64,000 bases of DNA from NCBI RefSeq assembly GCF_028464145.1, contig NZ_JAQPCG010000011.1, positions 62,001-126,000 of the forward strand, read 5' to 3'. Position numbers and translations under genes: made by a program. Source of the DNA: Maribacter sp. PR1. Its GTDB lineage: Bacteria > Bacteroidota > Bacteroidia > Flavobacteriales > Flavobacteriaceae. The notes beneath the pieces were generated by a model. The model made no database searches and had not been told where the DNA came from. It saw only the letters and a list, made by a program, of their open reading frames with translations. This document shows, one piece after another, positions 16,432 through 48,358 of the stretch. The first letter of the stretch is position 1. Each line of letters begins with the position of its first letter.

Positions 16432-16432
16432 G

Positions 16433-17716: not shown

Positions 17717-17800
17717 GTGAATTTAGGTATTAAGTTGGTTTTGGTCTAAAACTTAAATATAGGCATTTGGGTCGTTTCCAATACTAAATGCAATCTGGTT

Positions 17801-19540: not shown

Positions 19541-19604
19541 AATATGAGGTTGTCGAGCAAGTCTTAGCAGTTTATACTTTTTTAAAGATAACCCTTTGTT
19601 TCGC

Positions 19605-19643
19605 AAAAATAAAAGCTATGGAAATGCCATAGCTTTTATTTTT
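19605..19643 (-). terminator. Rho-independent terminator (bidirectional hairpin)
   Basis: A perfect 17-bp inverted repeat, AAAAATAAAAGCTATGG (19605-19621) and its complement (19627-19643), with a 5-nt loop. The U-rich tail works in either direction, but the site lies 19 bp after the stop of the minus-strand Gfo/Idh gene and insulates the amidohydrolase. Confidence 0.85.
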
Positions 19644-19661
19644 CAATAATCATTTTGTTGG

Positions 19662-31300: not shown

Positions 31301-33284
31301 TTGGGATGTGTAGCATTATTTTAGTTCCAGAAGCTTTATTTTCGTTATCATAAATATCAATGATTTCCACATGGAATGAATTTTGATAATCCTTTGAGAA
31401 ATTTGCCAATCGCTCTTTGGTAATGTCTATTCCTACGGACTTTCGTTTTAATACCTTTCTCTCCTTTATTTTTTCCGCGGCATCACGTCCAACACCATCA
31501 TCCGTAATGGCAATATTGATAAACCCTTCCACTCCCTTCATAACATCTAAGGTGATGTTCTTTTCTCCTTCTTTGGATGAAAGCCCATGCCAAAGTGCAT
31601 TTTCCAAAAAAGGTTGAAGAATCAGTGACGGAATTTTGACGTTATGCACATCGATATCATCTTCTACATTGATTTTAAAAATGATTTCATTTGAAAATCG
31701 GATGTTCTCAATATTCATGTATAATTCCACGGTTTCCAATTCTTCCGCGAGTGGAATTTCCCTTTGTGAAGAGGCTTCTAGAATTTTCCGAACCAGTTTA
31801 GAAAACTTATTGAGATAGTGGACCGCGTTTTTCTTTTCGTTATTAATGATGTATAGTTTAATGGAATTCAATGAATTAAAGAGAAAATGTGGATTCATTT
31901 GACTCCTCAACATAGTCTGTTCCAATGTCAAAAGTTTCTTTTCACTGCTTAGCTGATATTGTCTATATAGAATGTAAAGAATTCCGGCCACTAGGGCGAG
32001 ACCAATGAAGGTAATCAAGAGCATCGTCTTGTTTTTTCTCAAGGTAATGGCTTGGTTTTTTACTTCTTCCTCTAATGATTTTAATTGGTCGCTTTGCTTT
32101 TCAGCTTCGTACCGCACAATCATATCGTTTACATACCTAAGGTTTAAGTTGTTAGTTACCTGTTCCTCATATTTTTTGGACTCTTTGTAAAAGTTCATTG
32201 CTCTTTTAAAATCATCTTTTTTCATCCATAATTCGGATAGAAATTTATTGGCTTCCGCTATCTCGGAAGGAAAGTTATATTCCGTAGCAATTTTAAGTCC
32301 TTCATTTAAATTGGATTCGGCCAAATTGTAATCTCCAACATTTAAATAGGCCCAACCCAAATTGATATAAACAGTAGCGATGATTTCTTGATCTCCTAAA
32401 TTTTTTGCCCTTTTTAAGGAGGAATTTAGCAGTTTTAAGGCCTCTTCCATTTTGTTTAAATGGACATACACATGGGCAATACTATAATTACAAATGATTT
32501 TGCCTTTTTCGGAATTGATTTCCGTATTAAAAGCCAATGATTTTTGAAAGCTTTCCAATGCCAGATCTAACTTTTCTTGTGCTTCATAGCACTCCCCTAC
32601 ATTTTGATGGTTAATAGCCAAACCCAACTTATTGTTAAGTTCATTTTCCAATTTCATGGACTCATTAAATTTTTCAATGGCCAAATCATACTGTTCCAAT
32701 AGTTGATAAATGTTTCCGATAGAATTCAAGGAGACATTTATACTTCTTTTTAAACCAGTTGAACGATTTTCAAATGGAATTGTTTCCGCCAATTCCAACG
32801 CCTCCTGACTATAATCCAAAGCGGATTTGATCGCATCTGTTCGCCTATAGACGACACTGATCATGTTTAGGCTATAGACTCTGAATTCCAGGTTTTCTGT
32901 TTCAATGGAGAGTTTAAGAGCGTCTTGGAAAAGTTCCAGTGCCTTGGGATACTGCGATATATCTCTATATACCCTGCCCATTTGATTTAGGGCATAGATT
33001 TGTGATTCCCAATAATTGAATTTTTTGGATTCTTCTACAACCAATTTCATTAAGGAAGTGTCCTTTCTATACGCTCGTAAATAACCATCTATTTCGGCAT
33101 AGGTACTTGGGGCCTCGATAATTAGGTTTTTCAAGGTACTCTCAAACTCTTCCGAAGTCTCTTGGGAAAATGAAAATGTGCTGGCTGTAAGTAGAATCAA
33201 ATAAAGAAATGTACGCCCCTTTAGAAAAAATGGGAATTTTAGAAATGAAAAAAACCAATGAATATTACAAAGATTCAAAATCAT
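31293..33284 (-). CDS. TPR-containing LytS/YehU-type sensor histidine kinase
   Basis: 663 residues. An N-terminal signal or anchor helix (about 22-40) leads into a periplasmic array of roughly seven to eight TPR units (about 65-390), a coiled linker, one membrane helix (420-441), then the His_kinase domain with MNPHFLFNSLNSIKLYI (phospho-acceptor His466) and a HATPase_c domain with ITDDGVGRDAA. This is the common Bacteroidota form in which external TPRs sense a peptide or protein signal. The response-regulator gene ends 6 bp upstream, so regulator and kinase form an operon, regulator first. Confidence 0.9.
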   Translation of the reverse strand: MILNLCNIHWFFSFLKFPFFLKGRTFLYLILLTASTFSFSQETSEEFESTLKNLIIEAPSTYAEIDGYLRAYRKDTSLMKLVVEESKKFNYWESQIYALNQMGRVYRDISQYPKALELFQDALKLSIETENLEFRVYSLNMISVVYRRTDAIKSALDYSQEALELAETIPFENRSTGLKRSINVSLNSIGNIYQLLEQYDLAIEKFNESMKLENELNNKLGLAINHQNVGECYEAQEKLDLALESFQKSLAFNTEINSEKGKIICNYSIAHVYVHLNKMEEALKLLNSSLKRAKNLGDQEIIATVYINLGWAYLNVGDYNLAESNLNEGLKIATEYNFPSEIAEANKFLSELWMKKDDFKRAMNFYKESKKYEEQVTNNLNLRYVNDMIVRYEAEKQSDQLKSLEEEVKNQAITLRKNKTMLLITFIGLALVAGILYILYRQYQLSSEKKLLTLEQTMLRSQMNPHFLFNSLNSIKLYIINNEKKNAVHYLNKFSKLVRKILEASSQREIPLAEELETVELYMNIENIRFSNEIIFKINVEDDIDVHNVKIPSLILQPFLENALWHGLSSKEGEKNITLDVMKGVEGFINIAITDDGVGRDAAEKIKERKVLKRKSVGIDITKERLANFSKDYQNSFHVEIIDIYDNENKASGTKIMLHIPTI

Positions 33285-33290
33285 ACCTAC

Positions 33291-34025
33291 TTATAATAAA
33301 TCTAAAAAGTCAGATTTCTTTTGTCTGGAAACAGGTATCTTATGATTCGATTTTAATACTACATAACCATCGGTCTTCAGGAATTCCTTTATTTTATTTA
33401 GGTTGATAATGTATGAATTATGAATTCTGAAAAAGGCATCTTCCGGTAATAAAGTATTTACTTCCTTGAGTTTCTTTGTAAGTACTATCTTTTGTCCATC
33501 AACAAGGAAAATAGTACTGTAGTTACCATCTGATTCAGCATAGAGGATTTCATCGCTCTCTAAAAATAGTAGTTTTCCGTCCGTATTTAAGGTAATTCTT
33601 TTGTTGGTGGATCGGGAATTAAAGTTTAACAATATTTGCTCTAATTTTTCTGCCGTGAAATTTTTAGTGTTGAACTTTTTAATTTTTGTAATGGTGTCCT
33701 CTAGGTCGTCGGAATCAATTGGTTTAAGCAAATAATCTATCGCTTCGTTCTTTAAAGCCTTAATGGCATACTGATTGTATGCAGTGGTTATCACAACAGG
33801 AAAGTTCTTATTGGTCAGTTTCTGTATAAATTGGAACCCATCCATTGTAGGCATTTCTATATCTAAAAAAAGACAGTCCGGAGTGTTTTTCTCCAAATAT
33901 TCCAATGCTTCAAACGGATTTGTAAATGAAGCGGTCACATTGATTTCTTCACTGAAATTTGTGAGCTCCCATGAGAGACTCTGGAGCGCCTTTATTTCAT
34001 CATCGACAATTACAGCTTCTAGCAT
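33291..34025 (-). CDS. LytTR-family response regulator
   Basis: 244 residues: receiver domain (1-120) with the acidic pocket VDDE, phospho-acceptor Asp55 in CLFLDIEMPTMDGF and the Lys in YLLKPI, then a LytTR DNA-binding domain (about 145-244) with ILYAESDGNYSTIFL and FFRIHNSYIINLNKIKEF. It pairs with the TPR-LytS kinase in the same operon. Target genes are not evident; the small exported orphans divergent from it (34.3-35.6 kb) are candidates by position only. Confidence 0.93.
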   Translation of the reverse strand: MLEAVIVDDEIKALQSLSWELTNFSEEINVTASFTNPFEALEYLEKNTPDCLFLDIEMPTMDGFQFIQKLTNKNFPVVITTAYNQYAIKALKNEAIDYLLKPIDSDDLEDTITKIKKFNTKNFTAEKLEQILLNFNSRSTNKRITLNTDGKLLFLESDEILYAESDGNYSTIFLVDGQKIVLTKKLKEVNTLLPEDAFFRIHNSYIINLNKIKEFLKTDGYVVLKSNHKIPVSRQKKSDFLDLL

Positions 34026-35860: not shown

Positions 35861-36781
35861 TCAAAGAAATTGATCCACTTTTTTGTAAGCTTCGATTACT
35901 GCCGTTTCCCCATCCTTACCAGATTGGGAATTACCATGTTCCATCCCGAGTACGCCATTGAAACCTTGGTTATGAATAAACTTGAATACATTTTTGTAAT
36001 TAATCTCGCCAGTAGTAGGCTCATTTCTACCAGGATTGTCACCAACTTGAATATAGGCTATTTCATCCCATGTAAGTCCCATATTGTGTATAATATTACC
36101 TTCTGTTTTTTGCATATGGTATATATCAAACAGTATTTTACAGGAAGGGCTGTCCACCCCTTTACAAATCATATATGTTTGATCTGAGTTCTGCAAATAA
36201 AGGTCCGGCGAATCCGATAATGGCTCTAATACCATCACTAGTCCATGAGGTTCAAAAATTTCAGCACCTCGTTTCAGGGCTTCTATAACATTGCCATCTT
36301 GTACTCCTATCGGAAAATTTCTTTCAAATCCTCCAGGGACAACGGTCATCCATTTTGCGTCTACACGTTTTGCTACTTCCACGGCTTTTTTACAACCATC
36401 TAGGAAGATATCAACATGTTCTTTTTTTCCTGCAGCTAAGGTATTTGCCATATTACCTCCTTTATCCACAACGAACACCCCCATGGTCATACCTCTTTTG
36501 GCAAGGGTTTCCCCAATTTTATTTTGTAAGGAGATATCACGGTTCATAAGGCCATTATCTTCAAATGCATTAAACCCTTGGTCTGCCATGAAATTTATTT
36601 GGTCAATAGGGTCTTCCCCTGCATGTTGCTTGAACATGCCTAAGTGAGGCGCATAATTAAGATTAAAGCTGTTAGGGGCTTTTCCTTGGTTATGATCTGA
36701 GGATGCGTAAGAAAAAGCCCCTCCCAACGAAATAACTCCGCTGGAAAGGGCTGTATTTTTAACAAAGTCTCTTCTTTTCAT
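35861..36781 (-). CDS. Tat-exported TIM-barrel sugar isomerase (hydroxypyruvate isomerase-like)
   Basis: 306 residues. The start MKRRDFVKNTALSSGVISLG is a twin-arginine signal. The mature part is a xylose-isomerase-like TIM barrel (AP endonuclease 2 superfamily) close to hydroxypyruvate isomerase: FEDNGLMNRD, VLEPLSDSPDLYL (metal Glu), CKILFDIYHMQKTEGN (metal Asp/His) and VLGMEHGNSQSG (metal Glu). It should isomerise or epimerise a keto-sugar. It is the last gene of the GMC-small-subunit-isomerase operon, starting 1 bp after the small-subunit stop, and export through Tat with a bound metal would place it with them in the periplasm. Confidence 0.86.
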   Translation of the reverse strand: MKRRDFVKNTALSSGVISLGGAFSYASSDHNQGKAPNSFNLNYAPHLGMFKQHAGEDPIDQINFMADQGFNAFEDNGLMNRDISLQNKIGETLAKRGMTMGVFVVDKGGNMANTLAAGKKEHVDIFLDGCKKAVEVAKRVDAKWMTVVPGGFERNFPIGVQDGNVIEALKRGAEIFEPHGLVMVLEPLSDSPDLYLQNSDQTYMICKGVDSPSCKILFDIYHMQKTEGNIIHNMGLTWDEIAYIQVGDNPGRNEPTTGEINYKNVFKFIHNQGFNGVLGMEHGNSQSGKDGETAVIEAYKKVDQFL

Positions 36782-36782
36782 G

Positions 36783-37430
36783 TTATAAGGACCATGCTTT
36801 GCCTCCGGTTAACTCTTGAGTATCCGCACAGGGAATATACTCTCCCGGTACGGGAAGATAAGCCATTACTTCCTCTCCTACATATTCTGAAGTTTTATAA
36901 CCCCAAATGGTCAATCCACGAAGATTATTTGCAAATGCGAACCTGGATGTCTCATCGTCCAAAGTCGCTTCACTACCTTCGGCTACAGCTTCCGTATAAG
37001 AGGTAATGGACTCGAACATTTTGGCTTCATCCTCTTTCGTATACTTTAGGGAACTTGCCAATACAGGTTCCAAATCTTCAGAAGTAAGGTCGTCTACATT
37101 TGACTTTCCAGAATCCTGTAAAGCCTTATCGGTAAATTTTCCCATAGCCATTCTTAGAAAATCTTGTTCTTCTTTTTCCAAGACGTCTTTAGCAAACTTA
37201 TCTATAAATATATCCACTTGTACTTCCGATGCGGAAGGAGTATCGGTCTTTGGAAGAATTATATCTACCAGTTTGGTAAGGACAGCTCCTTCCGATACCG
37301 TTAAGAATTCAGGTGTCCATGTCGCCACAGTTTCCCCTTTACAACTTTGCATAATGCTTAAAAGGGTGGGAGTAGCAACAGTATAACCCATTGCTAACCC
37401 CATATTTTTAAGTGCTTTTCTTCTATCCAT
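36783..37430 (-). CDS. GMC dehydrogenase small subunit (gluconate 2-dehydrogenase subunit 3 family)
   Basis: 215 residues. The N-terminus MDRRKALKNMGLAMGYTV is a Tat signal, followed by a possible lipobox (IMQSC, Cys30). The mature protein fits the gluconate 2-dehydrogenase subunit 3 family, with LTKLVDIILPKTDTPSA and the C-terminal LRGLTIWGYKTSEYVGEEV. In FAD-dependent glucose and gluconate dehydrogenases this subunit carries the only export signal and takes the folded flavoprotein through Tat with it. Here its ATG overlaps the stop of the GMC gene by one base, so the two are coupled. Confidence 0.88.
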   Translation of the reverse strand: MDRRKALKNMGLAMGYTVATPTLLSIMQSCKGETVATWTPEFLTVSEGAVLTKLVDIILPKTDTPSASEVQVDIFIDKFAKDVLEKEEQDFLRMAMGKFTDKALQDSGKSNVDDLTSEDLEPVLASSLKYTKEDEAKMFESITSYTEAVAEGSEATLDDETSRFAFANNLRGLTIWGYKTSEYVGEEVMAYLPVPGEYIPCADTQELTGGKAWSL

Positions 37431-39148
37431 TATATATTTCCTTTTTTAAGTTCTTCTGCAGCGTGGTTTGCGGCCCTCGCTGAAAATGCCATGTAGGTTA
37501 ATGACGGATTCACGCAACTTGCAGATGTCATAAATGATCCATCTGTGACATAAACATTAGGTACATCATGGAGTTGGTTATTGCCATTTAATACCGAAGT
37601 TTTTCGATCCCTACCCATTCTGGCCGTACCCATTTCGTGGATTCCTAGACCTATAGCACGAGATTCTTCATTGTCATGCCCTTGTACATCACGCAGACCT
37701 GCTTTCTCCAACATTTCAACGGCTGACTCCTGCATGTCCTTGCGCATATTATATTCATTTTCTTGGAATTCTGCATCAAAGGTTACCGTTGGTAGTCCCC
37801 ACTGATCTTTTTTATCGTAATCCAAAGTGAATCTATTTTCTTGATAAGGTAATATTTCCCCGAATCCACCAATACCAAAGGTCCATCCGCCGGGTTTGGT
37901 AATGGCATCCTTTAAGTTCTTGCCGTGGGACATTTCTGCGATGACGTCTTCCCAGTTTCCACGGCTAGCACCACCTTGATATCCAAAGCCACGTTTATAA
38001 TCGGTGCGATTGGAGTCGCCTCCCAAATTTCTAAATCTTGGAATATAAACACCATTAGGCTTTCTGCCTTTATAGTATTTATCGTCAAATCCATCAAATT
38101 TTCCAGAGGCTCCCACGCCCAAATGGTGATCCATTACATTACGTCCCAGCTGATCGGAGTCATTGCCCATTCCGTTGGGGAAGCGATCGGATTTGGATTG
38201 CATTAGAATGGATGTTGAAGCAATGGCCGAAGCACAAAGGAAAATAACCTTTGCTTTAAATTCATAGGCCTCTTTGGTGACCCTATCGATTACCTTCACA
38301 CCAGTAGCTTTTTTAGTGTTAGGGTCGTACATTATTTCATGCACGATGGAATCTGGTCTTAAGGTCAGGTTACCGGTTGCCTCGGCCGCGGGTAAAGTTG
38401 ATGACAAGCTGCTGAAATAAGCTCCAAAAGGACAACCTCGTATACATCTATTTCTGAATTGGCATTTTGATCGGCCATCGAAATTTTTACTTCCCGTTAT
38501 ATGTGCAACCCTTCCTGATGTAATTACGCGACCATCGAAATTTTCAGCTACTTTTTCCCGAACATGTTGCTCTACACAGTTTAGATCCATCATGGGTAAA
38601 AAGTTACTGTCCGGGAGTTGTGGCAGGTTTAATGCCTCACCACTTACTCCGATATAATCCTCAACTTTAGCGTACCATGGCGCGATGTCCTTATAACGGA
38701 CAGGCCAATCTACGGCTATACCATCTCTTTTATTCGCAGTAAAGTCAATATCGCTCCATCGATAGCTATGCCGCCCCCATTGAAGTGAACGTCCTCCAAC
38801 ATGGTAGCCACGCATCCAGTCAAATCTTTTGATCTCATTGTAGGGATGTTCCAAATCATTTACAAACCACATATGGCTTGCTTGGCTCGTAGTATAACCA
38901 GTTCTGTGTTGTTTAGGTTGTTGCTCAATAATTTCTTTGGTAGCAACACCCCCATTTGGAAAATCCCAAGGGTCTTTGTTGGCAGTCACGTAATCCTCTA
39001 TGTGCTTCACCATTCTACCCCGTTCAAGAACTAGTGTCTTTAAACCATTTTCACAAAGCTCTTTAGCGGCCCATCCACCACTAATTCCAGTTCCAACAAC
39101 AATCGCATCATACGATTCCTGTTCTTCGTTATAATAAAATTTACTCAT
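37430..39148 (-). CDS. FAD-dependent GMC-family sugar dehydrogenase, catalytic subunit 1
   Basis: 572 residues without its own signal peptide. FAD-binding GxGxxG in YDAIVVGTGISGGWAAKEL (residues 13-31), the GMC substrate domain, and the C-terminal active site HEMGTARMG (catalytic His) and SCVNPSLTYMA (catalytic Asn). It also holds CQFRNRCIRGCPFG, a CX5CX3C arrangement like that binding the 3Fe-4S cluster of Burkholderia FAD-glucose dehydrogenase. It should oxidise a sugar hydroxyl (C1, or C3 as in glucoside 3-dehydrogenases) in the periplasm. Cotranscribed with the Tat small subunit; no cytochrome c subunit is adjacent. Confidence 0.9.
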   Translation of the reverse strand: MSKFYYNEEQESYDAIVVGTGISGGWAAKELCENGLKTLVLERGRMVKHIEDYVTANKDPWDFPNGGVATKEIIEQQPKQHRTGYTTSQASHMWFVNDLEHPYNEIKRFDWMRGYHVGGRSLQWGRHSYRWSDIDFTANKRDGIAVDWPVRYKDIAPWYAKVEDYIGVSGEALNLPQLPDSNFLPMMDLNCVEQHVREKVAENFDGRVITSGRVAHITGSKNFDGRSKCQFRNRCIRGCPFGAYFSSLSSTLPAAEATGNLTLRPDSIVHEIMYDPNTKKATGVKVIDRVTKEAYEFKAKVIFLCASAIASTSILMQSKSDRFPNGMGNDSDQLGRNVMDHHLGVGASGKFDGFDDKYYKGRKPNGVYIPRFRNLGGDSNRTDYKRGFGYQGGASRGNWEDVIAEMSHGKNLKDAITKPGGWTFGIGGFGEILPYQENRFTLDYDKKDQWGLPTVTFDAEFQENEYNMRKDMQESAVEMLEKAGLRDVQGHDNEESRAIGLGIHEMGTARMGRDRKTSVLNGNNQLHDVPNVYVTDGSFMTSASCVNPSLTYMAFSARAANHAAEELKKGNI

Positions 39149-39227
39149 AGAAATTGTTTATTCCCTAAATTTATTAAATATTAAATTAATTCTATACATT
39201 TAAATCTTAATCTTATTGAGAATATGA

Positions 39228-39245
39228 CACTATAACGTTATAGTG
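39228..39245. promoter_or_regulatory. LacI-type palindromic operator candidate
   Basis: CACTATAACGTTATAGTG is a perfect 18-bp palindrome with a central CG, the hallmark of LacI/GalR-family operators. It lies in the 173-bp divergent promoter region, 80 bp from the GMC start and 77 bp from the TIM-barrel start, so one repressor could control both arms. No LacI gene is present in the window. Confidence 0.6.
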
Positions 39246-39259
39246 GTAATCAGTAAATT

Positions 39260-39276
39260 ACTCCATTTTATGGAGT
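39260..39276. promoter_or_regulatory. Second dyad in the divergent promoter
   Basis: ACTCCAT-TTT-ATGGAGT, a perfect 7-bp inverted repeat with a 3-bp spacer, 14 bp from the palindrome and 46 bp before the TIM-barrel ATG. Could be a second regulator site or an RNA hairpin in the leader. Confidence 0.4.
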
Positions 39277-39321
39277 TAAACATTTTAGAACCAATTACCT
39301 AAGCAAAAATTATTTTGATCA

Positions 39322-40314
39322 ATGAAAAGAAGAAATTTTATTACTAGGACCACCGCAGCAGGTGTGGGAGTTACTTTTTTGGGAGCCTACGCTTGTAAGG
39401 AAACAAAAAAAGAGGATAAAACGATTCCCGAAATGGAGGAATCTTCAGCAATGACGGAACCGTTTTTTGAACTATCCCTGGCGCAATGGTCCATTCATAA
39501 AATGATTAATGAAAAGGGTGTGGATCCATACACTTTTGCGGAAAAAGCTAAAAACTGGGGTTTCAAAGGTTTGGAATACGTTAGCCAACTTTACCCTGCT
39601 GATTTAGAAAACGATGACTATTCACCAGAGGCTATGACCGCATTTATTGATAAGTCTAATACCGAAGCTGAAAAGCACGGTATGAAGAATGTTTTGATTA
39701 TGATTGACCGACAAGGGAATCTTGCCGCAAGCGATGAAGCTGAGCGAAATGAAACAGTAGAGAAACATAAAAAGTGGGTAGATGCCGCTGCGGCAATGGG
39801 TTGCCACGCCATCCGAGTAAATCTAAATGGCAGCAATGATCCGGAGGAATGGAAGATGAATTCTGTGGACGGTCTTACCAAACTTGGCAGGTATGCCAAG
39901 GATAAGAACATCAATGTTCTTGTAGAGAACCATGGAGGACTATCTTCTAATGGTGAATTACATGCTGAGGTAATGCAGATGGTAGCTATGGATAATGTAG
40001 GTACCTTACCGGATTTTGGAAATTTTTGCATAACCAGGAAACCTGATAGCTGGGATTGCGAAGTAATGTATGATAAATATAAAGGAGTTAAGGAATTGAT
40101 GCCTTATGCCAAAGCGGTAAGTGCAAAATCCAACGTATTTGATGCAGAGGGGAACGAAGAGAATATTGACTATGTAAAGATGTTACAAATAGTCAAGGAC
40201 AATGGATATACCGGATTTGTGGGCGTTGAATATGAAGGAAACGTGCTAAGCGAGGAAGAAGGTATTATTGCAACAAGGGATTTATTATTAAAGGCGGCTA
40301 AAGAAGTTGTTTAA
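39322..40314 (+). CDS. Tat lipoprotein, TIM-barrel sugar isomerase/epimerase
   Basis: 330 residues. MKRRNFITRTTAAGVGVTFL is a Tat signal and GAYAC (Cys25) a lipobox, so the protein is likely a folded, membrane-anchored periplasmic enzyme. The mature part is a xylose-isomerase-like TIM barrel: FKGLEYVSQLY, NVLVENHGGLSSNG (metal Glu), GTLPDFGNF (metal Asp), VSAKSNVFD and FVGVEYEGNVLSEEEG (metal Glu). It should isomerise or epimerise a sugar or keto-sugar. First gene of the plus arm of the cluster, with the LacI-type dyads upstream; the DinB gene follows after 18 bp. Confidence 0.86.
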   Translation: MKRRNFITRTTAAGVGVTFLGAYACKETKKEDKTIPEMEESSAMTEPFFELSLAQWSIHKMINEKGVDPYTFAEKAKNWGFKGLEYVSQLYPADLENDDYSPEAMTAFIDKSNTEAEKHGMKNVLIMIDRQGNLAASDEAERNETVEKHKKWVDAAAAMGCHAIRVNLNGSNDPEEWKMNSVDGLTKLGRYAKDKNINVLVENHGGLSSNGELHAEVMQMVAMDNVGTLPDFGNFCITRKPDSWDCEVMYDKYKGVKELMPYAKAVSAKSNVFDAEGNEENIDYVKMLQIVKDNGYTGFVGVEYEGNVLSEEEGIIATRDLLLKAAKEVV

Positions 40315-40332
40315 CTCTAGGTTTATTGGAAT

Positions 40333-40776
40333 ATGAAAGCATTCTTTCATGAATTGTTCGACTATAATTTCTTTTGTAATAAGAGAATTATCGATGAATG
40401 TGTGGCAATGCAACAGGTTCCCGATAAAACGCAGGAACTTTTTAGCCATATCCTTAATGCACATCATATCTGGAATGCCCGAATTCTAATGAAGACTTCC
40501 GAATTTAATGTTTGGGACAGACATAATGTAAAAGATTGGTCTGATATCCATTATGAAAACCAAAGGACTTCGTTTGAAATAACCACAAATGCGGATGGTT
40601 TTGATAAACGAATCGACTATGAAAATTCCGAAGGCAGGCTTTTCACCAATACCTTACAGGATATATTGTTTCACATTATAAATCATTCTACAAATCATAG
40701 GGGGCAAATTGCTATGGACTTTAGAAAAAATGACATAGAGCCTATTGTATTGGATTACGTTTTTTATAAAAGATAA
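40333..40776 (+). CDS. DinB-family protein
   Basis: 147 residues, a four-helix DinB/YfiT-like fold. The metal-binding histidines are visible in LFSHILNAHHIWNARI (near residues 39-54) and IINHSTNHRGQIAM (near 117-130). Members include thiol-dependent S-transferases and damage-inducible proteins; the reaction is unknown here. Its place inside a sugar operon, 18 bp after one gene and 5 bp before the next, suggests cotranscription and not SOS control. Confidence 0.83.
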   Translation: MKAFFHELFDYNFFCNKRIIDECVAMQQVPDKTQELFSHILNAHHIWNARILMKTSEFNVWDRHNVKDWSDIHYENQRTSFEITTNADGFDKRIDYENSEGRLFTNTLQDILFHIINHSTNHRGQIAMDFRKNDIEPIVLDYVFYKR

Positions 40777-40781
40777 AAGCC

Positions 40782-42014
40782 ATGAACCTCGGTATTCGAA
40801 TACGCCTATGTTTAATGATGTTCCTGGAATTTTTTATTTGGGGAGGGTGGTTTGTAACACTAGGTACTTTTCTGGGTAATAATATTAATGCTTCGGACGG
40901 TGAAATTGCTTTGGCTTTTTCAACCCAATCTTGGGGTGCTATTATTGCTCCTTTTGTTATTGGTTTAATTGCCGATAGATATTTCAATGCTGAAAGAATT
41001 TTGGGGCTCTTACATCTCTTGGGTGCTGGTCTTTTGTTTCTAATGTACAAGACAACTTCCTTCGATGTTTTCTATCCGTATGTTTTGGGCTACATGATAT
41101 TGTATATGCCAACTTTGGCATTGGTCAATTCCGTTTCCTTTAATCAGATGAAAAATCCGGCCAAAGAATTTTCCATGATAAGGGTCTTTGGGACACTCGG
41201 TTGGATTGTTGCTGGGCTATTGATCAGTTATCTTTTTGAATGGGATTCTAGTTCGGGTATATTACAGGGGCAATTAAAAAACACATTTTTAATGACCTCC
41301 ATGGCTTCTTTGTTCTTAGGGATATTCAGTTTCAGCCTACCAAAAACACCGCCGAAAGCAAAAGGTACAAGTGAAAAATTGAGCATCAGGGATATTCTGG
41401 GTTTAGACGCATTGAATTTGTTCAAGGACAGGAATTTTTTGATATTTTTTATATCCTCGATTCTCATATGTATTCCCTTAGCGTTCTATTATCAGAATGC
41501 GAATCCTTTTTTGGTAGAAATAGGAATGGAAAACCCAACTGGTAAAATGACATTAGGTCAGATTTCCGAAATTCTTTTTTTATTGCTATTACCCTACTTT
41601 TTTACAAAATTTGGATTTAAAAATACCATTTTGGTAGCCATGCTTGCTTGGGTAGTACGTTATCTTTTATTTGCTTATGGGGATGTAGGGGAACTCGGCT
41701 TCATGTTGATAATAGGTATTGCACTTCATGGTATATGCTATGATTTCTTTTTTGTTTCCGGTCAAATTTATACGGATAGTAAAGCAGGGCCTAAATATAA
41801 AAGCTCGGCACAGGGACTAATTACCCTAGCAACCTACGGGGTGGGTATGTTAATTGGTTTTTGGATAGCGGGGGAGATAGCCAACACCTATTTGTTGAGC
41901 GACGGAATGCATATTTGGGAATCGATTTGGTTATATCCTGCCAGCTTTGCGTTTATAGTGTTGATTTTATATGCTCTTTTATTTAAAAGAGAAAAAATCG
42001 ACTATCAATCTTAG
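40782..42014 (+). CDS. NupG-like MFS permease (nucleoside:H+ symporter family)
   Basis: 410 residues, 12 membrane helices. The N-terminus LCLMMFLEFFIWGGWFVTLGTF with STQSWGAIIAPFVIGLIADRYF is characteristic of the NupG/XapB nucleoside:H+ symporter family of the MFS, and the C-terminal half has GIALHGICYDFFFVSGQIYTD. In Bacteroidota sugar loci these permeases are often next to Gfo/Idh and TIM-barrel genes, so the cargo may be a modified sugar or glycoside and not a nucleoside. Confidence 0.88.
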   Translation: MNLGIRIRLCLMMFLEFFIWGGWFVTLGTFLGNNINASDGEIALAFSTQSWGAIIAPFVIGLIADRYFNAERILGLLHLLGAGLLFLMYKTTSFDVFYPYVLGYMILYMPTLALVNSVSFNQMKNPAKEFSMIRVFGTLGWIVAGLLISYLFEWDSSSGILQGQLKNTFLMTSMASLFLGIFSFSLPKTPPKAKGTSEKLSIRDILGLDALNLFKDRNFLIFFISSILICIPLAFYYQNANPFLVEIGMENPTGKMTLGQISEILFLLLLPYFFTKFGFKNTILVAMLAWVVRYLLFAYGDVGELGFMLIIGIALHGICYDFFFVSGQIYTDSKAGPKYKSSAQGLITLATYGVGMLIGFWIAGEIANTYLLSDGMHIWESIWLYPASFAFIVLILYALLFKREKIDYQS

Positions 42015-42062
42015 AATTTTTACATAAATTGAAAACCTTAAAACTAAAAATACGATTACAAC

Positions 42063-43202
42063 ATGCCAAAGAAAATTAGATTAGGAATTTTAGGAGGAGG
42101 AGGAGATTCACTCATTGGGGTATTACATAGGGTAGCTTCCCATATAAATGATAATTATCAAATCACAGGGGCGGTTTTCAATCCCGATTATGATGATAAC
42201 ATTGCTTTTGCAAAAGAAATTGATATTCCTCTGGACCGGGTATACAAAGATTTTGACACCCTAGTGGAGGAGGAAATGAAATTGCCTGAGGATGAACGTA
42301 TACAAGTATGTTCCGTTCTTACGCCTAATTTTTTACACTTCCCAATGGCCAAAAAGTTATTGGACAATGGATTTCATGTCATTTGTGAAAAGCCCATGAC
42401 AACTACTTTGGAAGAAGCAAAAACCTTATTGGAATCACAACAAAAATCAGGTACCGTTTTTGCCTTGACACATACTTATACCGGGTATCCTATGGTGCGC
42501 CAAATGAGGGAAATGATTAAAGCCGGAGCTCTTGGGAAAATCCATAAGGTAGATGCCAGATATTATCAAGGTTGGATCAATGAAATTATCCATGATAAGG
42601 AAAAACGAAATTCGGTTTGGCGCCTAGACCCTAAGAAGGCGGGAATAAGTTCCTGTATGGGAGATATAGGGGTACACGCGTTTAATATGGTAGAATACAC
42701 TACTGGTCTTAAAGTGAAGTCGCTTTTATGTGATTTCAACTATTTATATGAGGATAATAAAATGGATGTAGACGGTACCGTATTAATAAGAATGGGCGAC
42801 CATGTAAAAGGGGTAATTCGAGGAAGTCAGGTCGCAACAGGAGAGGAAAATGGTTTGGCCATTCGCATCTATGGCGAAAAGGGAGCTTTTGTTTGGGAAC
42901 AGGAAAAACCTAATTTCCTGTATAAGATGAGTGATACCGAACCTGTTCAAATATACAAGCCCGGTCATGCCTATAATACCGAATTATCATTGGATGGTAC
43001 GAAACTACCTGCAGGTCACCCTGAAGGAATTTTTGATTCTATGGCCAACATTTATTTAGGAGCGGCAAGAGCCATTAGAGGTGAAAAATATAATGACGGC
43101 GAATTCCCAACCATCGTTGATGGTGTAAGAGGGATGGATTTTATTTTATCGACAGTAGAATCTAATAAGAACGGAAATACTTGGGTGGATTTAGAGGATT
43201 AA
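42063..43202 (+). CDS. Gfo/Idh/MocA-family oxidoreductase (cytoplasmic)
   Basis: 379 residues without signal peptide. N-terminal Rossmann fold (RLGILGGGGDSLIGVLHRVA), the HVICEKPMTTTLEEA block with the catalytic EKP Lys near residue 115, and a GIDH-like C-terminal domain with SSCMGDIGVHAFNMVEY carrying the substrate-binding His. It should oxidise or reduce a sugar hydroxyl/ketone with NAD(P). As the cytosolic step next to a permease, reduction of an imported 3-keto-sugar back to the sugar is a plausible role. Last gene of the plus arm; a strong terminator follows. Confidence 0.9.
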   Translation: MPKKIRLGILGGGGDSLIGVLHRVASHINDNYQITGAVFNPDYDDNIAFAKEIDIPLDRVYKDFDTLVEEEMKLPEDERIQVCSVLTPNFLHFPMAKKLLDNGFHVICEKPMTTTLEEAKTLLESQQKSGTVFALTHTYTGYPMVRQMREMIKAGALGKIHKVDARYYQGWINEIIHDKEKRNSVWRLDPKKAGISSCMGDIGVHAFNMVEYTTGLKVKSLLCDFNYLYEDNKMDVDGTVLIRMGDHVKGVIRGSQVATGEENGLAIRIYGEKGAFVWEQEKPNFLYKMSDTEPVQIYKPGHAYNTELSLDGTKLPAGHPEGIFDSMANIYLGAARAIRGEKYNDGEFPTIVDGVRGMDFILSTVESNKNGNTWVDLED

Positions 43203-43221
43203 TTAATAGACCCATTTTAAG

Positions 43222-43256
43222 AAAGGACCGGCTACTCACCGGTCCTTTTTATTTTT
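43222..43256 (+). terminator. Rho-independent terminator (bidirectional)
   Basis: AAAGGACCGG (43222-43231), 7-nt loop, CCGGTCCTTT (43239-43248) and a T-rich tail. It ends the Gfo/Idh operon and, read from the other strand, may also serve the convergent ASCH gene whose stop is at 43256. Confidence 0.88.
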
Positions 43257-43714
43257 TAGAAAATTTTTTCAAATTCCTGACACACCACGATCATACTTTC
43301 GTTTGGTTTTCTATTAAAGGGTTCTAGTTCCCTGGTATAGTAATCCCAATGCGTTTTTTTCCAATAGGATAAACTTTTATCCCCTTCTCCTTCCAATGCT
43401 GCGTATTGCTCGTCAATATTAAAATAGGGTTTTAGTTTAACTGAAATAAGTTTAATAATGCATTGTGCCTCACCTTCCCAATTGGTAACTACCTTAAAAT
43501 CTCCAATTTTAGGTAAGGCTTCCTTTCTTAGTTGTAAACCTAAAAGCGAATCCGTTGTCGCTTTTTTAATTCCTTTTTTTGCTAAATCCGCACATAGGTC
43601 AGCATCTTTTTGGTTGTCGCAGAAATGTATGACTTCCGGCGCATCGTGAAACGCATCCTCGAGATGTTTGTCCAAGTAATCACCCCACATATTTCTGGCA
43701 GAAGCATTTTCCAT
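43256..43714 (-). CDS. ASCH-domain protein
   Basis: 152 residues of the ASCH (PUA-like) family: GIKKATTDSLLGLQLRKEALPKIG near residues 48-71 corresponds to the substrate-pocket strand-turn, and LSYWKKTHWDYYTRELEP to the typical C-terminal W-rich helix. Members bind RNA or act as amidohydrolases on N4-acetylcytidine. No link to the surrounding sugar genes is evident. It is probably a short independent unit between two terminators/gaps. Confidence 0.86.
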   Translation of the reverse strand: MENASARNMWGDYLDKHLEDAFHDAPEVIHFCDNQKDADLCADLAKKGIKKATTDSLLGLQLRKEALPKIGDFKVVTNWEGEAQCIIKLISVKLKPYFNIDEQYAALEGEGDKSLSYWKKTHWDYYTRELEPFNRKPNESMIVVCQEFEKIF

Positions 43715-43830
43715 AGTCTATTTAATAAATAAATGGTTGGGTCTGTAGAATCTTTAAAGAACTTACATTGATATTGAATCAAATAATTAGATCGATACGA
43801 TTCTTAAGATTCCCGTTATATCGTTATTGT

Positions 43831-45534
43831 TTACGAAAATTTACCCGCTTTAAATTCTTTAGCCGCATGATTTGCCGCCCGGGCAGTAAAAGCCATATAG
43901 GTCAATGAAGGATTAACACAGCTAGAGGACGACATAAAGGCTCCGTCGGTTACATACACATTGGGTACTAAATGGACCTGATTGTTTTTGTTTACGATGG
44001 AGTCCTTAGGACTATGACCCATACGGGCACCACCCATTTCATGTATACCTAATCCAGGACCGGTAACTTGATCATAGGTGCTTATTTCCTTAAAGCCCGC
44101 AGCCTTAAACATGACTTCTATTTGTTTTTTTATATCCTCTCTCATATTATATTCATTTTCTTTGAACTCCACATCAAAAGCCAATTGAGGTAGCCCCCAT
44201 TTATCTTTTTCTGTTGGGCTTAAGGTAACTCTGTTATCATCGTAGGGAAGAAATTCACCAAAACCTGTAACGCCGATAGTCCAATGTCCGGGTTTTATAA
44301 TTTCTTGTTTTAGTTCCTTTCCGTAACTCAACTCGGCAATGGATTCAGACCAATCTCCACGGCTAGCTCTTCCCTGATATCCAAAACCTCGTAAGTAACC
44401 TTCTCGCTTTGTATTTTCGTCCAGGTTTACAAATCGCGGGATGTAAAAGCCTGTAGGCTGTCGTCCCTTATAATATTTATCCAGAAATCCATCAACCTTA
44501 GCCGAAGCCCCTAATTTATAATGGTGGTCCATAATTCCTCGTCCCAAGGCATCGGAATCATTACCAAGCCCGTTTGGAAATCGTTCCGATTTGGACTGAA
44601 GCAAAATCCCAACTGATGCCATCGCCGAAGCACATAGAAATATTACATTTGCCTTAAACTCTAATTCTTCATGGGTTTCGGCATCGATTACCTTTACCCC
44701 CGTAGCCATTTTTGTAGTGTCGTCATAAATAATTTCATAAACAATGGAATTCGGCCGCAAGGTCATATTGCCTGTTCGCTCCGCTGCTGGCAAAGTGGAG
44801 GAATTACTGCTAAAATATCCTCCAAAAGGACAACCTCTTGAACAACGATCGCGGTTTTGGCAGGTACCTCTACCTTCAAAATTTGCATTGGGATCTGTTA
44901 TATGGGCTGTTCTGCCAATTGTAACCAATCGCCCATCATCGAATTTTTCAGCGGTCTCTTTTTTAAAGACCTCTTCAACACAGTTCAACTTCATAGCGGG
45001 CTGATATTTCCCGTCAGGCAATTGTTTTAGACCCAAATTCTCACCACTAACACCAATATATTCTTCAACCTTATCGTACCATGGTGAAATATCGGTATAT
45101 CGTACAGGCCAATCCACTCCAATATTTTCCTTTTTATTGGCTCCGAAATCAATATCACTCCATCGGTAACTCTGTCTCCCCCAAGTAAGGGATCTTCCTC
45201 CCACTTGATACCCGCGAATCCAATCAAAACGTTTTGTCTCTACGTAGGGATGTTCCAAATCGTTTACGAAAAAATGCTTATTATCGTCTTTAGGCGCCCA
45301 ATTTACCCTACTCTGAACATGATATTTTTTTTGTTCGTCCTTAGAAAGCTCACCTTTGTAAGCGTAGTCCCAAGGATCATCGTTCATGGTAGGGTAGTCT
45401 TTTAAATGCTCTACCATACGGCCACGTTCCAGGACTAAGGTTCTTAAGCCGTTTTCGGTCAGTTCCTTGGCTGCCCAACCACCACTTATTCCCGTTCCAA
45501 CTACGATAGCATCGTAGGTTTCTTCTTGATTCAT
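43831..45534 (-). CDS. FAD-dependent GMC-family sugar dehydrogenase, catalytic subunit 2
   Basis: 567 residues, a clear paralogue of the GMC protein at 37.4-39.1 kb along the whole length: YDAIVVGTGISGGWAAKEL at the N-terminus, CQNRDRCSRGCPFG (again CX5CX3C), HEMGGARMG and SCVNPSLTYMA at the active site. No signal peptide and, unlike copy 1, no small-subunit gene beside it, so export would need the small subunit from the other operon or an unseen partner. Divergent from the cytosolic TIM-barrel gene, 159 bp apart. Confidence 0.9.
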   Translation of the reverse strand: MNQEETYDAIVVGTGISGGWAAKELTENGLRTLVLERGRMVEHLKDYPTMNDDPWDYAYKGELSKDEQKKYHVQSRVNWAPKDDNKHFFVNDLEHPYVETKRFDWIRGYQVGGRSLTWGRQSYRWSDIDFGANKKENIGVDWPVRYTDISPWYDKVEEYIGVSGENLGLKQLPDGKYQPAMKLNCVEEVFKKETAEKFDDGRLVTIGRTAHITDPNANFEGRGTCQNRDRCSRGCPFGGYFSSNSSTLPAAERTGNMTLRPNSIVYEIIYDDTTKMATGVKVIDAETHEELEFKANVIFLCASAMASVGILLQSKSERFPNGLGNDSDALGRGIMDHHYKLGASAKVDGFLDKYYKGRQPTGFYIPRFVNLDENTKREGYLRGFGYQGRASRGDWSESIAELSYGKELKQEIIKPGHWTIGVTGFGEFLPYDDNRVTLSPTEKDKWGLPQLAFDVEFKENEYNMREDIKKQIEVMFKAAGFKEISTYDQVTGPGLGIHEMGGARMGHSPKDSIVNKNNQVHLVPNVYVTDGAFMSSSSCVNPSLTYMAFTARAANHAAKEFKAGKFS

Positions 45535-45693
45535 CCCTTTATTTTTATCTTTTTCTGATGGTATTTCCTATATTTATAAATTGACGAATGATAAATACAG
45601 GAATGTGTAATTAATTCTTTAAATATAATATTAATTCACAGATTTCTACTTGCAACATTAACAACGTATTAAATAACAGAAGCAGTATCAAAT

Positions 45694-46746
45694 ATGAAAA
45701 CAATTAAAGGCCCTGGGGTATTTTTAGCGCAATTTGTAGATAGTGAAGCACCGTTCAACACTTTAGATGGTATGTGTAAATGGGCTGCAGATTTAGGATA
45801 TAAAGGAATTCAGATTCCAACATGGGAAAGCTTTCTTATCGATTTGGATAAAGCCGCGGAGAGTCAGACCTATTGTGACGAGTTAAAAGGTAAGATTAAC
45901 TCTTACGGATTGGAGATAACAGAACTGTCTACACATTTACAAGGGCAATTGGTAGCGGTTCACCCTGCCTATGATTTAATGTTCGATTCATTTGCACCAA
46001 AAAATGTGCATAACAATCCTAAGGCAAGAACGGAATGGGCGGTTGAAACGGTAAAGAAGGCGGCAACTGCAAGTAGAAGATTGGGTTTAAAGTCTCATGC
46101 TACTTTTTCCGGTTCACTTTTATGGCATACGATGCATCCATGGCCCCAAAGGCCAGCGGGATTAGTTGAGATGGGTTTTGAGGAACTGGCCAAAAGATGG
46201 ATGCCGATATTGGACCACTATGATAAGGAAGGTGTAGATGTTTGTTATGAAATTCATCCTGGTGAAGATTTGCATGACGGGGATACCTTTGAACGATTTC
46301 TTGAAGCAACCAATAACCACAAACGAGTAAACATACTTTATGATCCAAGTCACTTTGTGCTTCAACAGTTGGACTACATAGAGTATATCGATTTTTATCA
46401 CGAATTTATTAAATCTTTTCACGTAAAGGATTCGGAGTTTAATCCTACTGGAAAAAAGGGAGCCTTTGGTGGGTATAATGATTGGGGTAATCGTGCCGGT
46501 AGATATCGTTCCTTGGGCGATGGCCAAATTGATTTTAAAACCATCTTTTCAAAACTTACCCAATATGGCTGCGATGTTTGGGCCGTAATGGAGTGGGAGT
46601 GCTGCATTAAGAGTCCTGAGCAAGGAGCTAGGGAAGGAGCTATTTTTATACAAGATCATATTATAGAGGCTACGGAGAAAACGTTCGATGATTTTGCAGG
46701 AGCGGAAATTGATAAGGAAATGCTGAAAAATATATTAGGACTTTAA
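45694..46746 (+). CDS. Cytoplasmic TIM-barrel sugar isomerase/epimerase
   Basis: 350 residues, no signal peptide. A complete xylose-isomerase-like barrel: GYKGIQIPTWE, GVDVCYEIHPGEDLHDGDTFERF (metal Glu plus His), VNILYDPSHFVLQQLD (metal Asp/His), SFHVKDSEFNPTGKKG and WAVMEWECCIKSPEQGAREG (metal Glu). This long subgroup is often found with GMC, Gfo/Idh and DUF1080 genes. It likely acts on a keto-sugar after uptake. The DUF1080 lipoprotein genes follow immediately, forming the operon isomerase-DUF1080-DUF1080. Confidence 0.88.
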   Translation: MKTIKGPGVFLAQFVDSEAPFNTLDGMCKWAADLGYKGIQIPTWESFLIDLDKAAESQTYCDELKGKINSYGLEITELSTHLQGQLVAVHPAYDLMFDSFAPKNVHNNPKARTEWAVETVKKAATASRRLGLKSHATFSGSLLWHTMHPWPQRPAGLVEMGFEELAKRWMPILDHYDKEGVDVCYEIHPGEDLHDGDTFERFLEATNNHKRVNILYDPSHFVLQQLDYIEYIDFYHEFIKSFHVKDSEFNPTGKKGAFGGYNDWGNRAGRYRSLGDGQIDFKTIFSKLTQYGCDVWAVMEWECCIKSPEQGAREGAIFIQDHIIEATEKTFDDFAGAEIDKEMLKNILGL

Positions 46747-46766
46747 TTATGGCTAAAATGATACCA

Positions 46767-47516
46767 ATGAAGAATATTTTAAAAACTCTCATCATCGCTT
46801 TACTAGTTGTAGGGTGTAAGGAAACCAAGAAAGAAACTGAAGAGTCCAAGGCTGTAGTGGATGATGCTACAATGATGCCAGACCAAGATACTTGGACCAT
46901 CATTTTTGATGGTGAAACTTTTGACGGATGGCATGAATACCTAAAACAAGATGTATCCGATAATTGGAAGATAGAGGACGGAGCTATGATTTTGTACCCA
47001 CCGGAGGAAAGGGAGGACGGAGAACAATTTAATTTGGTTAGCAATGACTCCTATACCGATTTTGAACTTTCCATGGACTGGAAAATTTCTGAAGGTGGTA
47101 ATAGCGGTGTTATGTGGGGTGTTAAGGAAATTGAGGAGTTGGGCCAGCCCTATGAAACGGGACCGGAAGTACAGGTTCTCGATAATGAAGGTCATCCTGA
47201 TGGTAAGAACGGTACAAGTCATCAATCCGGAGCATTATACGATATGGTATCCCCATCTGAAGATGTGACCAAACCAATTGGGGAATGGAATAACATGGTG
47301 ATTACCATCAACCATAAAACCAATGAAGGTAATGTTGTTTTAAATGGAGTAGAGGTAGTTGATTTCCCAGTTAATGACCCCGAATGGGGAGAAATGGTTT
47401 CCGAATCAAAATTTGCGGATTGGGAACATTTTGCGAAATATTCCAATGGAAAAATAGCCTTACAGGACCATGGAAATCAGGTTGCATTTAAGAACATCAA
47501 AATAAAAGAACTTTAA
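46767..47516 (+). CDS. DUF1080 lipoprotein 1 (3-keto-disaccharide hydrolase/lyase family)
   Basis: 249 residues from the ATG at 46767, which gives a good lipoprotein signal (MKNILKTLIIALLVVGC); an ATG six codons earlier (46749) is also possible. The mature protein is a jelly-roll of the DUF1080 / 3-keto-disaccharide hydrolase family: TIIFDGETFDGWHEY, DFELSMDWKISEGGNSGVMW, GPEVQVLDNEGHPDG and a C-terminal KIALQDHGNQVAFKNIKI. Members act on 3-keto-glycosides made by glucoside 3-dehydrogenases. Anchored in the periplasm or on the surface, 20 bp before its paralogue. Confidence 0.88.
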   Translation: MKNILKTLIIALLVVGCKETKKETEESKAVVDDATMMPDQDTWTIIFDGETFDGWHEYLKQDVSDNWKIEDGAMILYPPEEREDGEQFNLVSNDSYTDFELSMDWKISEGGNSGVMWGVKEIEELGQPYETGPEVQVLDNEGHPDGKNGTSHQSGALYDMVSPSEDVTKPIGEWNNMVITINHKTNEGNVVLNGVEVVDFPVNDPEWGEMVSESKFADWEHFAKYSNGKIALQDHGNQVAFKNIKIKEL

Positions 47517-47536
47517 AAAGCCATATAAACTATAAT

Positions 47537-48358
47537 ATGAAAAGATTTTATATTTCGGGACTACTATGTTCAATATTGTTTGCTTCATGTCAAGAAAAGG
47601 TTACCCAGGAAACAGCGGAATCAGAAATGGAAGTTAAGGATGAGGTAATTGTATACGATGAGTATTCGGGTACGGAGCCAACTACCCCAGAGGAAACAGA
47701 ATTTTACGAGCCAAAGGTGCCAGTAGTAAATCCTACTGGGCAGAATGGAGCTCCGAGCGACGCCATTGTTTTATTCGATGGTAGTGATTTGGACAATTGG
47801 ATATCTTCCATTGATAGTACAGCTGCGAAATGGCATTTGAACAACGATGGTAGTATGACCGTAAAGGACAAGACGGGTGATATACAAACAAAGCAAAATT
47901 TTGGGGACATTCAATTACACATCGAATGGAAGTCTCCTTTACCTGTACAAGAAGAGGGGCAGCATAGGGGGAATAGTGGTATTTTTTTGAATGGTATGTA
48001 TGAGGTACAAGTTTTAGATCAAAATGACAACCCAACCTATGTTAATGGGCAAGTAGCATCGATTTATAAGCAGCATGTTCCTCTGGCCATGGCTTCCGTA
48101 CCTACAGGGGATTGGAACACGTATGATATTATTTATCATGCTCCGGAATTCAATAATGAGGGAGGTAAAACAAAATCAGGTGACATTACTGTAATCCATA
48201 ATGGTGTTTTGGTACAAGATCATATAGAGCTAAAAGGCACTACACCATATATTGGCTGGCCTAAGAATCCAGCACATGGGAAAGGCCCGCTTAAATTACA
48301 GGACCATGGGGACGACAGTCGTGTAAGTTATCGTAATATTTGGGTAAGGGAACTTTAG
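47537..48358 (+). CDS. DUF1080 lipoprotein 2 (3-keto-disaccharide hydrolase/lyase family)
   Basis: 273 residues; lipoprotein signal with lipobox ending FASC (Cys18) and an acidic linker before the domain. DUF1080 landmarks: AIVLFDGSDLDNWIS, FGDIQLHIEWKSP, HRGNSGIFLNGMYEVQVLD and the end motif PLKLQDHGDDSRVSYRNIWV. The core differs much from copy 1 (GIFLNGMYEVQ against GVMWGVKEIEE), so the two probably carry out different steps, for example elimination and hydration, or act on different aglycones. Last gene of this operon; 56 bp before yicC. Confidence 0.9.
   Translation: MKRFYISGLLCSILFASCQEKVTQETAESEMEVKDEVIVYDEYSGTEPTTPEETEFYEPKVPVVNPTGQNGAPSDAIVLFDGSDLDNWISSIDSTAAKWHLNNDGSMTVKDKTGDIQTKQNFGDIQLHIEWKSPLPVQEEGQHRGNSGIFLNGMYEVQVLDQNDNPTYVNGQVASIYKQHVPLAMASVPTGDWNTYDIIYHAPEFNNEGGKTKSGDITVIHNGVLVQDHIELKGTTPYIGWPKNPAHGKGPLKLQDHGDDSRVSYRNIWVREL

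Follow-up and report, generated by a model that had tools for sequence, protein, structure and literature searches.

A conserved gene cluster of Maribacter sp. PR1 probably encodes a two-compartment, non-hydrolytic glycoside pathway

The 64,000-nucleotide window of Maribacter sp. PR1 analysed here (assembly GCF_028464145.1, contig NZ_JAQPCG010000011.1, positions 62,001 to 126,000, forward strand) carries a gene cluster whose outermost open reading frame (ORF) ends lie at 35861 and 48358. Judged from homology and gene context, this locus probably encodes a non-hydrolytic glycoside pathway divided between two compartments and consisting of oxidation, elimination, hydration and reduction. This reading is carried by the match of a cytosolic TIM-barrel protein to a 2-hydroxy-3-keto-glucal hydratase, by the company that such hydratases keep in other genomes, by the conservation of catalytic-type residues, by the export features of the dehydrogenase subunits and by the in vitro performance of the same four reactions by systems of Agrobacterium and Bacillus (the Agrobacterium hydration on preliminary evidence). 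An earlier, sequence-only reading of the locus had proposed a glycoside route and probably recognised the class of pathway correctly. Homology and linkage uphold its 3-keto chemistry, in which the glycoside is oxidised and cleaved before entering the cytosol and the sugar is reduced within it, with no classical hydrolase in the locus; the hydratase points away from a simple hydrolysis of 3-keto intermediates.

Hydratase, reductase and dehydrogenases of the proposed route

The hydratase homologue TIM-C (HYD; 45694..46746, plus strand) aligned over its full length (residues 1-350) with PDB 8ro4, '2-hydroxy-3-keto-glucal hydratase', at 548.5 bits, its next solved relative reaching 154.7 bits and IolE 39.6 bits. 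It is 59-68% identical to the hydratases of seven plasmid operons (five from Alphaproteobacteria, one from Pseudoalteromonas and one from Hymenobacter), and residues E186, H188, D217, H243 and E300 were kept in 62/62 sequences. For this residue count and those of GFO, the GMCs and the DUF1080 proteins, tblastn segments above identity limits of 45-75%, depending on the protein, with 90% coverage and no stop were used. In view of the full-length match, the assignment of this cytosolic barrel as a sugar isomerase was not upheld, and a beta-elimination with hydration as a distinct second step is the better reading of the cleavage.

A Gfo/Idh/MocA gene adjoined the hydratase gene in all seven plasmid operons, and a GMC dehydrogenase with its small subunit lay nearby in five of them. 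DUF1080 genes occurred in three, ABC transporters in four and major facilitator superfamily (MFS) transporters in three; the Croceicoccus operon also holds a GH3 and a DUF6379 gene, and an eighth region, from Catenovulum, has GMC, small subunit, TIM-barrel and DUF1080 genes and no hydratase. The Gfo/Idh/MocA oxidoreductase of the locus (GFO; 42063..43202, plus strand; PF01408 and PF22725) shares 34-41% identity with the hydratase-linked Gfo proteins of the seven operons, and its residues K110, D201 and H205 were kept in 71/71 sequences. GFO is presumed to act as cytosolic 3-keto-glucose reductase. Likewise, the NupG-like MFS permease (40782..42014, plus strand; PF03825, 373 bits), 56% identical to its counterpart in the Hymenobacter operon and scoring 358.9 bits against TIGR00889, under its cut-off of 446.1, is presumed to import the sugar-derived product.

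Among 247 Bacteroidota genomes, including that of the strain itself, the hydratase (E<=1e-80) was found in 49 and the GMC type (E<=1e-120) in 70; both were present in 49, the hydratase alone in none, the GMC alone in 21 and neither in 177. These counts took in 37 of the 63 TIM-B places listed and 49 GMC places among the matches listed. The hydratase neighbourhood was scored at 40 of 51 places; the remainder were the six most closely related ones, among them that of the strain itself, plus five more. A GFO homologue was present at 34 of the 40, always as the same-strand neighbour among the genes scored. MFS was seen at 29, GMC at 20, the small subunit and a small c-type cytochrome at 18 each, proteins of the DUF1080-A kind at 16 and of the DUF1080-B kind at 7, TIM-B at 2 and TIM-A at 1. 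The idea that hydratase loci lacking a GMC neighbour belong to organisms lacking this GMC was dropped, as every hydratase genome has one.

The hydratase occurred once in 47 of the 49 genomes and twice in two, and GMC matches ran to at least five per genome. The genome of the strain itself has one hydratase at E<=1e-80, five GMCs of the GMC1 kind (one at only 35% identity) and four small subunits; PF06439 matched 15 times above its cut-off, one frame accounting for two of these. From this pattern we infer that a single hydratase-reductase node in the cytosol may receive the products of several external oxidising systems. With a single such node, the imported molecule would be the unhydrated enone, so that an unsaturated ketone, not a 3-keto-sugar, would pass the inner membrane. 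Three further pairs of GMC and small-subunit genes lie elsewhere in this genome (L005 9259-11645, L006 9671-11969 and L007 8939-12261); after the last comes a TIM-barrel gene akin to the kind with an H-N-H motif.

Both GMC dehydrogenases and the small subunit of the twin-arginine translocation (Tat) type that had been named for the locus were recovered. GMC1 (37430..39148, minus strand) is a flavin adenine dinucleotide-dependent oxidoreductase large subunit with PF05199 and PF00732 domains and precedes the Gluconate_2-dh3 small subunit (36783..37430, minus strand; PF13618, 99 bits), which starts with the twin-arginine sequence MDRRKALK. GMC1 is 56-60% identical to the GMCs adjoining small subunits in Catenovulum, Hymenobacter, Palleronia and Ketogulonicigenium, 47% to that of Croceicoccus and only 31% to that of Pseudoalteromonas. 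Its residues C229, C235, C239, H504 and N547 were kept in 81/81 sequences; the three cysteines, which presumably bind a 3Fe-4S cluster, align with those of fructose dehydrogenase and correspond to the cysteines of iron-sulfur large subunits as in LacABC. Export features were judged by eye from the sequence. Twin-arginine starts were seen on the small subunit, TIM-A and TIM-B, and TIM-C, GFO and both GMCs carried no visible signal, as would be expected for the GMCs if the small subunit carries them out. The small subunit is accordingly presumed to be their Tat carrier, and GMC1 is presumed to be a glycoside 3-dehydrogenase.

GMC2 (43831..45534, minus strand) has no adjoining small subunit and is 65% identical to GMC1. 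In a tree of 65 of 159 GMC segments, rooted by hand on the Pseudoalteromonas GMC, GMC2 formed the sister clade of GMC1 (node support 0.998; GMC2 clade 1.0, GMC1 clade 0.937). This topology indicates that GMC2 arose by duplication in an ancestor of the sampled Flavobacteriaceae and was later lost in some lineages, 40 of 65 loci retaining it. Its orthologues keep the three cysteines and the asparagine in 44/44 sequences and the histidine in 43/44, with one tyrosine in its place, and GMC2 is probably a working enzyme of other specificity that uses the small subunit of GMC1.

Taken together, GMC1 or GMC2 with the small subunit would act outside the cytosol and oxidise a glucose-type glycoside at C3. 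An exported lyase, namely one or both DUF1080 proteins and perhaps TIM-B, would then release the aglycone by beta-elimination, giving 2-hydroxy-3-keto-glucal, and TIM-A may alter the sugar configuration. The NupG-like permease would bring the glucal in. Its hydration to 3-keto-glucose by cytosolic TIM-C is strongly suggested by homology, and reduction of 3-keto-glucose to glucose by GFO would follow from homology and linkage. The gluco configuration of the substrate is inferred from the hydratase alone.

Layout and conservation of the cluster

Every gene that had been named between 35861 and 48358 was found at its coordinates, and the four divergent operons described there amount to two pairs of transcription units, the divergent partners lying 173 and 159 bases apart. 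GMC1, the small subunit and TIM-A are read from the minus strand, followed by TIM-B, DinB, MFS and GFO on the plus strand, ASCH and GMC2 on the minus strand, and TIM-C, DUF1080-A and DUF1080-B on the plus strand. The gene list was complete except for two overlooked genes, one for a DinB-family protein (40333..40776, plus strand; PF05163, 41.4 bits) and one for an ASCH-domain protein (43256..43714, minus strand; PF04266, 75.5 bits). A Pfam scan of 39 window proteins (20 plus 19, the latter scored at E<=1e-10 only) identified no glycoside hydrolase, polysaccharide lyase, SusC or SusD, as had been claimed for the locus. The three PF01261 TIM barrels were also present, with export-type N-termini on TIM-A and TIM-B and not on TIM-C, as were the two DUF1080 lipoproteins, both PF06439 members with a lipobox-like cysteine.

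The sequence-only reading had suggested a comparison of neighbourhoods across Flavobacteriaceae, and most of the gene set recurred there. A scan of named genomes with the GMC pair gave 210 relatives, of which 80 (79-94% identity) were kept; by title they come from Maribacter, Zobellia, Arenibacter, Flagellimonas, Cellulophaga and comparable genera, all of the family Flavobacteriaceae, or from unassigned Bacteroidota bins. Genes were counted in the 65 full-length loci, 15 of the 80 being too short, by the best tblastn match at E<=1e-5 covering at least 35% of the query. The small subunit was present in all 65, TIM-B, GFO and ASCH in 62 each, TIM-C in 59, DinB in 57, DUF1080-A and MFS in 55 each, DUF1080-B in 50, TIM-A in 42 and GMC2 in 40; the 65/65 for GMC1 is uninformative, as GMC was the query. 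Gene order in the loci listed is that of the window. A count of the arrangement GFO-ASCH-GMC2 was set aside as unreliable, the best matches of GMC2 including GMC1. Three loci hold only the small subunit and GMC1; L052, the one of them in the tree, clusters with the paralogue C18 from the genome of the window. The grouping of the cluster genes is not due to chance, and the locus is real, conserved and coherent. Among top-ranked open-licence papers, no literature on this locus in Flavobacteriaceae was found.

In 59 of the 64 loci in which TIM-B and MFS share a strand, the DinB gene sits between them in the same orientation, and histidines 39, 44, 114 and 122 of its product were invariant in 20 sequences. 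The 40 other Bacteroidota hydratase loci gave no match (E<=1e-3) to DinB or ASCH, so that both look lineage-bound; ASCH is possibly a passenger. Bacillithiol transferases are members of the DinB superfamily (PMC5815605). Bacillithiol synthesis is plausible in this strain, whose genome carries bshC (458.7 bits), and one may speculate that DinB detoxifies the enone.

In the divergent gap between GMC1 and TIM-B, a perfect palindrome of 16 bases (18 with flanks) is found at 39229-39244, with no second match in the window at up to three mismatches. In a search for an operator common to both divergent promoters, the palindrome proved not to be generally kept, the relatives listed showing no copy apart from a near one in L070, and the 9-mers common to both gaps are AT-rich. 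Neither is taken as evidence for one regulon. Genes for a TPR histidine kinase and a LytTR response regulator (31293-34025, minus strand) adjoin the cluster, and relatives of the two lie beside it in 44/65 and 46/65 full-length loci, respectively; this pair is a possible regulator of the cluster. Farther away (15097-21086, minus strand), genes for an AtuA-family protein, a citrate-type transporter, an amidohydrolase and a Gfo/Idh/MocA protein form a run that has the look of a catabolic cluster in its own right.

Proposed cleavage in the periplasm or at the cell surface, and alternative readings

DUF1080-A (46749..47516, plus strand; PF06439, 168.6 bits at a cut-off of 26.8) and DUF1080-B (47537..48358, plus strand; 137 bits at the same cut-off) belong to two subfamilies on sequence grounds, the former matching many PF06439 structures (8rr2 at 125.5 bits), the latter mainly 4qhz (260 bits). 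The histidine of the QDHG motif and the lipobox cysteine were both kept in 57/57 DUF1080-A and 39/39 DUF1080-B sequences. DUF1080-A is a candidate 3-keto-glycoside lyase or hydrolase. TIM-B (39322..40314, plus strand), an exported TIM barrel of an uncharacterised GMC-linked family, conserves E202-N203-H204, D231, S267, K269 and E303, and its lipobox-like C25 was invariant in 33 sequences. Its best match among solved structures, 4ovx (258 bits), is the one close solved relative found and bears no functional name. By its sequence, TIM-B falls into a phylum-wide GMC-linked family resembling C-glycoside eliminases, and it is a candidate 3-keto-glycoside lyase. TIM-A (35861..36781, minus strand), an exported PF01261 barrel resembling hydroxypyruvate isomerase, is likely a 3-keto-sugar epimerase or isomerase. 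A role of TIM-A as an eliminase like AtOGE of Agrobacterium was dropped, as the base histidine is absent: TIM-A has E-x-L and TIM-B E-N-H, so that no barrel of the AtOGE-type H-N-H kind is found in the locus. AtOGE (8BVK) was not among the best 50 matches listed for either protein, which excludes nothing. Outside the locus, the genome holds three relatives, by similarity, of an H-N-H barrel.

Several observations weigh against the proposed pathway. Two of the seven plasmid hydratase operons have no GMC in the stretch read, and 20 of the 40 hydratase loci have none within about 10 kb. The Fisher p of 2e-35 for the co-occurrence of hydratase and GMC is uncorrected for kinship and depends on the thresholds. 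In the window, GFO does not adjoin TIM-C and sits in the neighbouring operon. Among solved GMCs, fructose and glucose dehydrogenases come closest, so that oxidation at C3 rests on context. No electron acceptor is encoded among the locus ORFs, nor is there a cytochrome c partner of the LacABC type beside GMC and small subunit. The idea of a cytochrome partner was set aside, as elsewhere in the genome the Hymenobacter-type cytochrome matched only parts of frames of 939-1137 amino acids. In other Bacteroidota, a small c-type cytochrome gene lies near the hydratase gene (L104, 14001-14474, and the 18 loci counted above among the 40, L138-L177) and is likely the electron acceptor there.

A further objection leads to the view of the sequence-only reading, that the DUF1080 lipoproteins complete cleavage outside the cytosol, free 3-keto-sugar is imported and reduced by GFO, and TIM-C handles only leaked enone. 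Pfam now names PF06439 3-keto-disaccharide hydrolase, and BT2157, a DUF1080 protein, is called 3-ketotrehalose hydrolase. A Bacteroides lyase of which an H275N variant exists is, we assume, also a DUF1080 protein. This lyase hydrates its own product and the H275N variant does not (PMC13273386). By analogy, DUF1080 enzymes may hydrate as well as eliminate, and free 3-keto-sugar could be the imported species; the 21 GMC genomes lacking the hydratase also fit. However, the hydratase is present in 49 of the 70 GMC genomes and in none without GMC, at 59-68% identity across phyla, and a side reaction on leaked enone alone would hardly maintain an enzyme so well kept. We consider complete cleavage by DUF1080 unlikely.

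It is more improbable still that the locus mainly serves glycosides of plant or algal natural products, C-glycosides perhaps among them, TIM-B then acting as a C-C lyase. In TIM-B, Ser267 replaces the strand-7 metal-binding histidine of C-glycoside deglycosidases, serine being present in 32 close orthologues and 21 of 22 further homologues (one not covered at this position). No gene for a second (beta) subunit is named among the locus ORFs, and the genome gave no match to one DUF6379 query protein in a search lacking a positive control. Least probable of all is a route for free sugars or cyclitols, in which GMC would act on C1 or on polyols, and the TIM barrels would form an inositol-like or isomerase route together with Gfo. 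There is likeness at the fold level to IolE, IolG, hydroxypyruvate isomerase and fructose and glucose dehydrogenases, but hydroxypyruvate isomerase reached 111.2 of its 353.45 cut-off, and myo-inositol catabolism was rejected because the equivalog cut-offs of IolE (58.3 of 290) and IolG (47 of 355) were missed. The strength of the hydratase match and the two PF06439 genes directly 3' of the hydratase gene also argue against such a route. A bolder extension of the proposed two-compartment pathway, which we regard as doubtful, would make TIM-B, as a lone relative of C-glycoside eliminases that has spread through Bacteroidota along with GMC dehydrogenases, a new class of exported 3-keto-glycoside lyase with serine for histidine in its metal site, have external lyases converge on one reactive enone, 2-hydroxy-3-keto-glucal, that passes a dedicated permease to a single cytosolic hydratase-reductase hub, and let DinB protect the cell from this Michael acceptor.

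Relation to known systems

The pathway class is already described for Agrobacterium (PMC10628242) and for Caulobacter and some Bacteroidetes (PMC9007349). To this the present analysis adds the hydratase assignment for the locus, the hub pattern of the genomes, the duplication that gave rise to GMC2, and TIM-B as a GMC-linked family whose site is altered. The 'sugar phosphate isomerase' gene recurring in such clusters would thereby get a concrete role, that of a hydratase, TIM-B becomes a named exported enzyme family open to direct assay, and these bacteria are predicted to import an unsaturated sugar ketone. If this is true, surveys counting only glycoside hydrolases miss part of the glycoside use of Bacteroidota.

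TIM-B shares E-x-H and EYEG signatures and a related fold with the C-glycoside deglycosidases DgpBC and EuCGD; unlike these, it is exported, has serine for the strand-7 histidine and has no beta subunit gene named beside it. The broad-specificity stepwise glycan pathway of Nasseri 2024 in Nature reportedly uses enzymes of the DUF1080 and Gfo types to oxidise, eliminate, hydrate and reduce, the oxidation depending on nicotinamide adenine dinucleotide (NAD), whereas the Maribacter locus would oxidise by GMC.

The Caulobacter lacABC cluster holds DUF1080, a transporter, two epimerases and a reductase, and similar clusters occur in some Bacteroidetes (PMC9007349). By this description, the same kinds of genes occur in our locus, which differs in having no LacB-like cytochrome gene. 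Fitness data from Caulobacter and a Pedobacter tie the dehydrogenase to glycoside use, hydrolysis of 3'-ketolactose is proposed for Caulobacter and the fate of the 3-keto-sugar is left open (PMC9007349), a question to which the pathway proposed here offers an answer. The levoglucosan system LgdA-B1-B2-C of Bacillus smithii shares the four reactions, two TIM-barrel proteins and a Gfo reductase, but starts with an NAD-dependent Gfo-type dehydrogenase instead of a flavin GMC with a Tat-type subunit (PMC7676230).

The likeness to the Agrobacterium tumefaciens operon GlycDH-TAT-AtOGE-AtHYD-Gfo extends, by homology, to a GMC with Tat-type small subunit, a hydratase homologue, a Gfo reductase of the hydratase-linked group and a PF01261-type barrel. 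For that operon, C3 oxidation and beta-elimination to 2-hydroxy-3-keto-glucal are demonstrated, with preliminary evidence for hydration and reduction (PMC10628242). Compared with the operon as described there, the Maribacter locus has the exported TIM-A and TIM-B and two DUF1080 lipoproteins in place of an H-N-H barrel of the AtOGE type, and additionally a second GMC, DinB and an MFS permease. As it has no AtOGE-type eliminase, we classify the locus as a variant of the Agrobacterium-type pathway.

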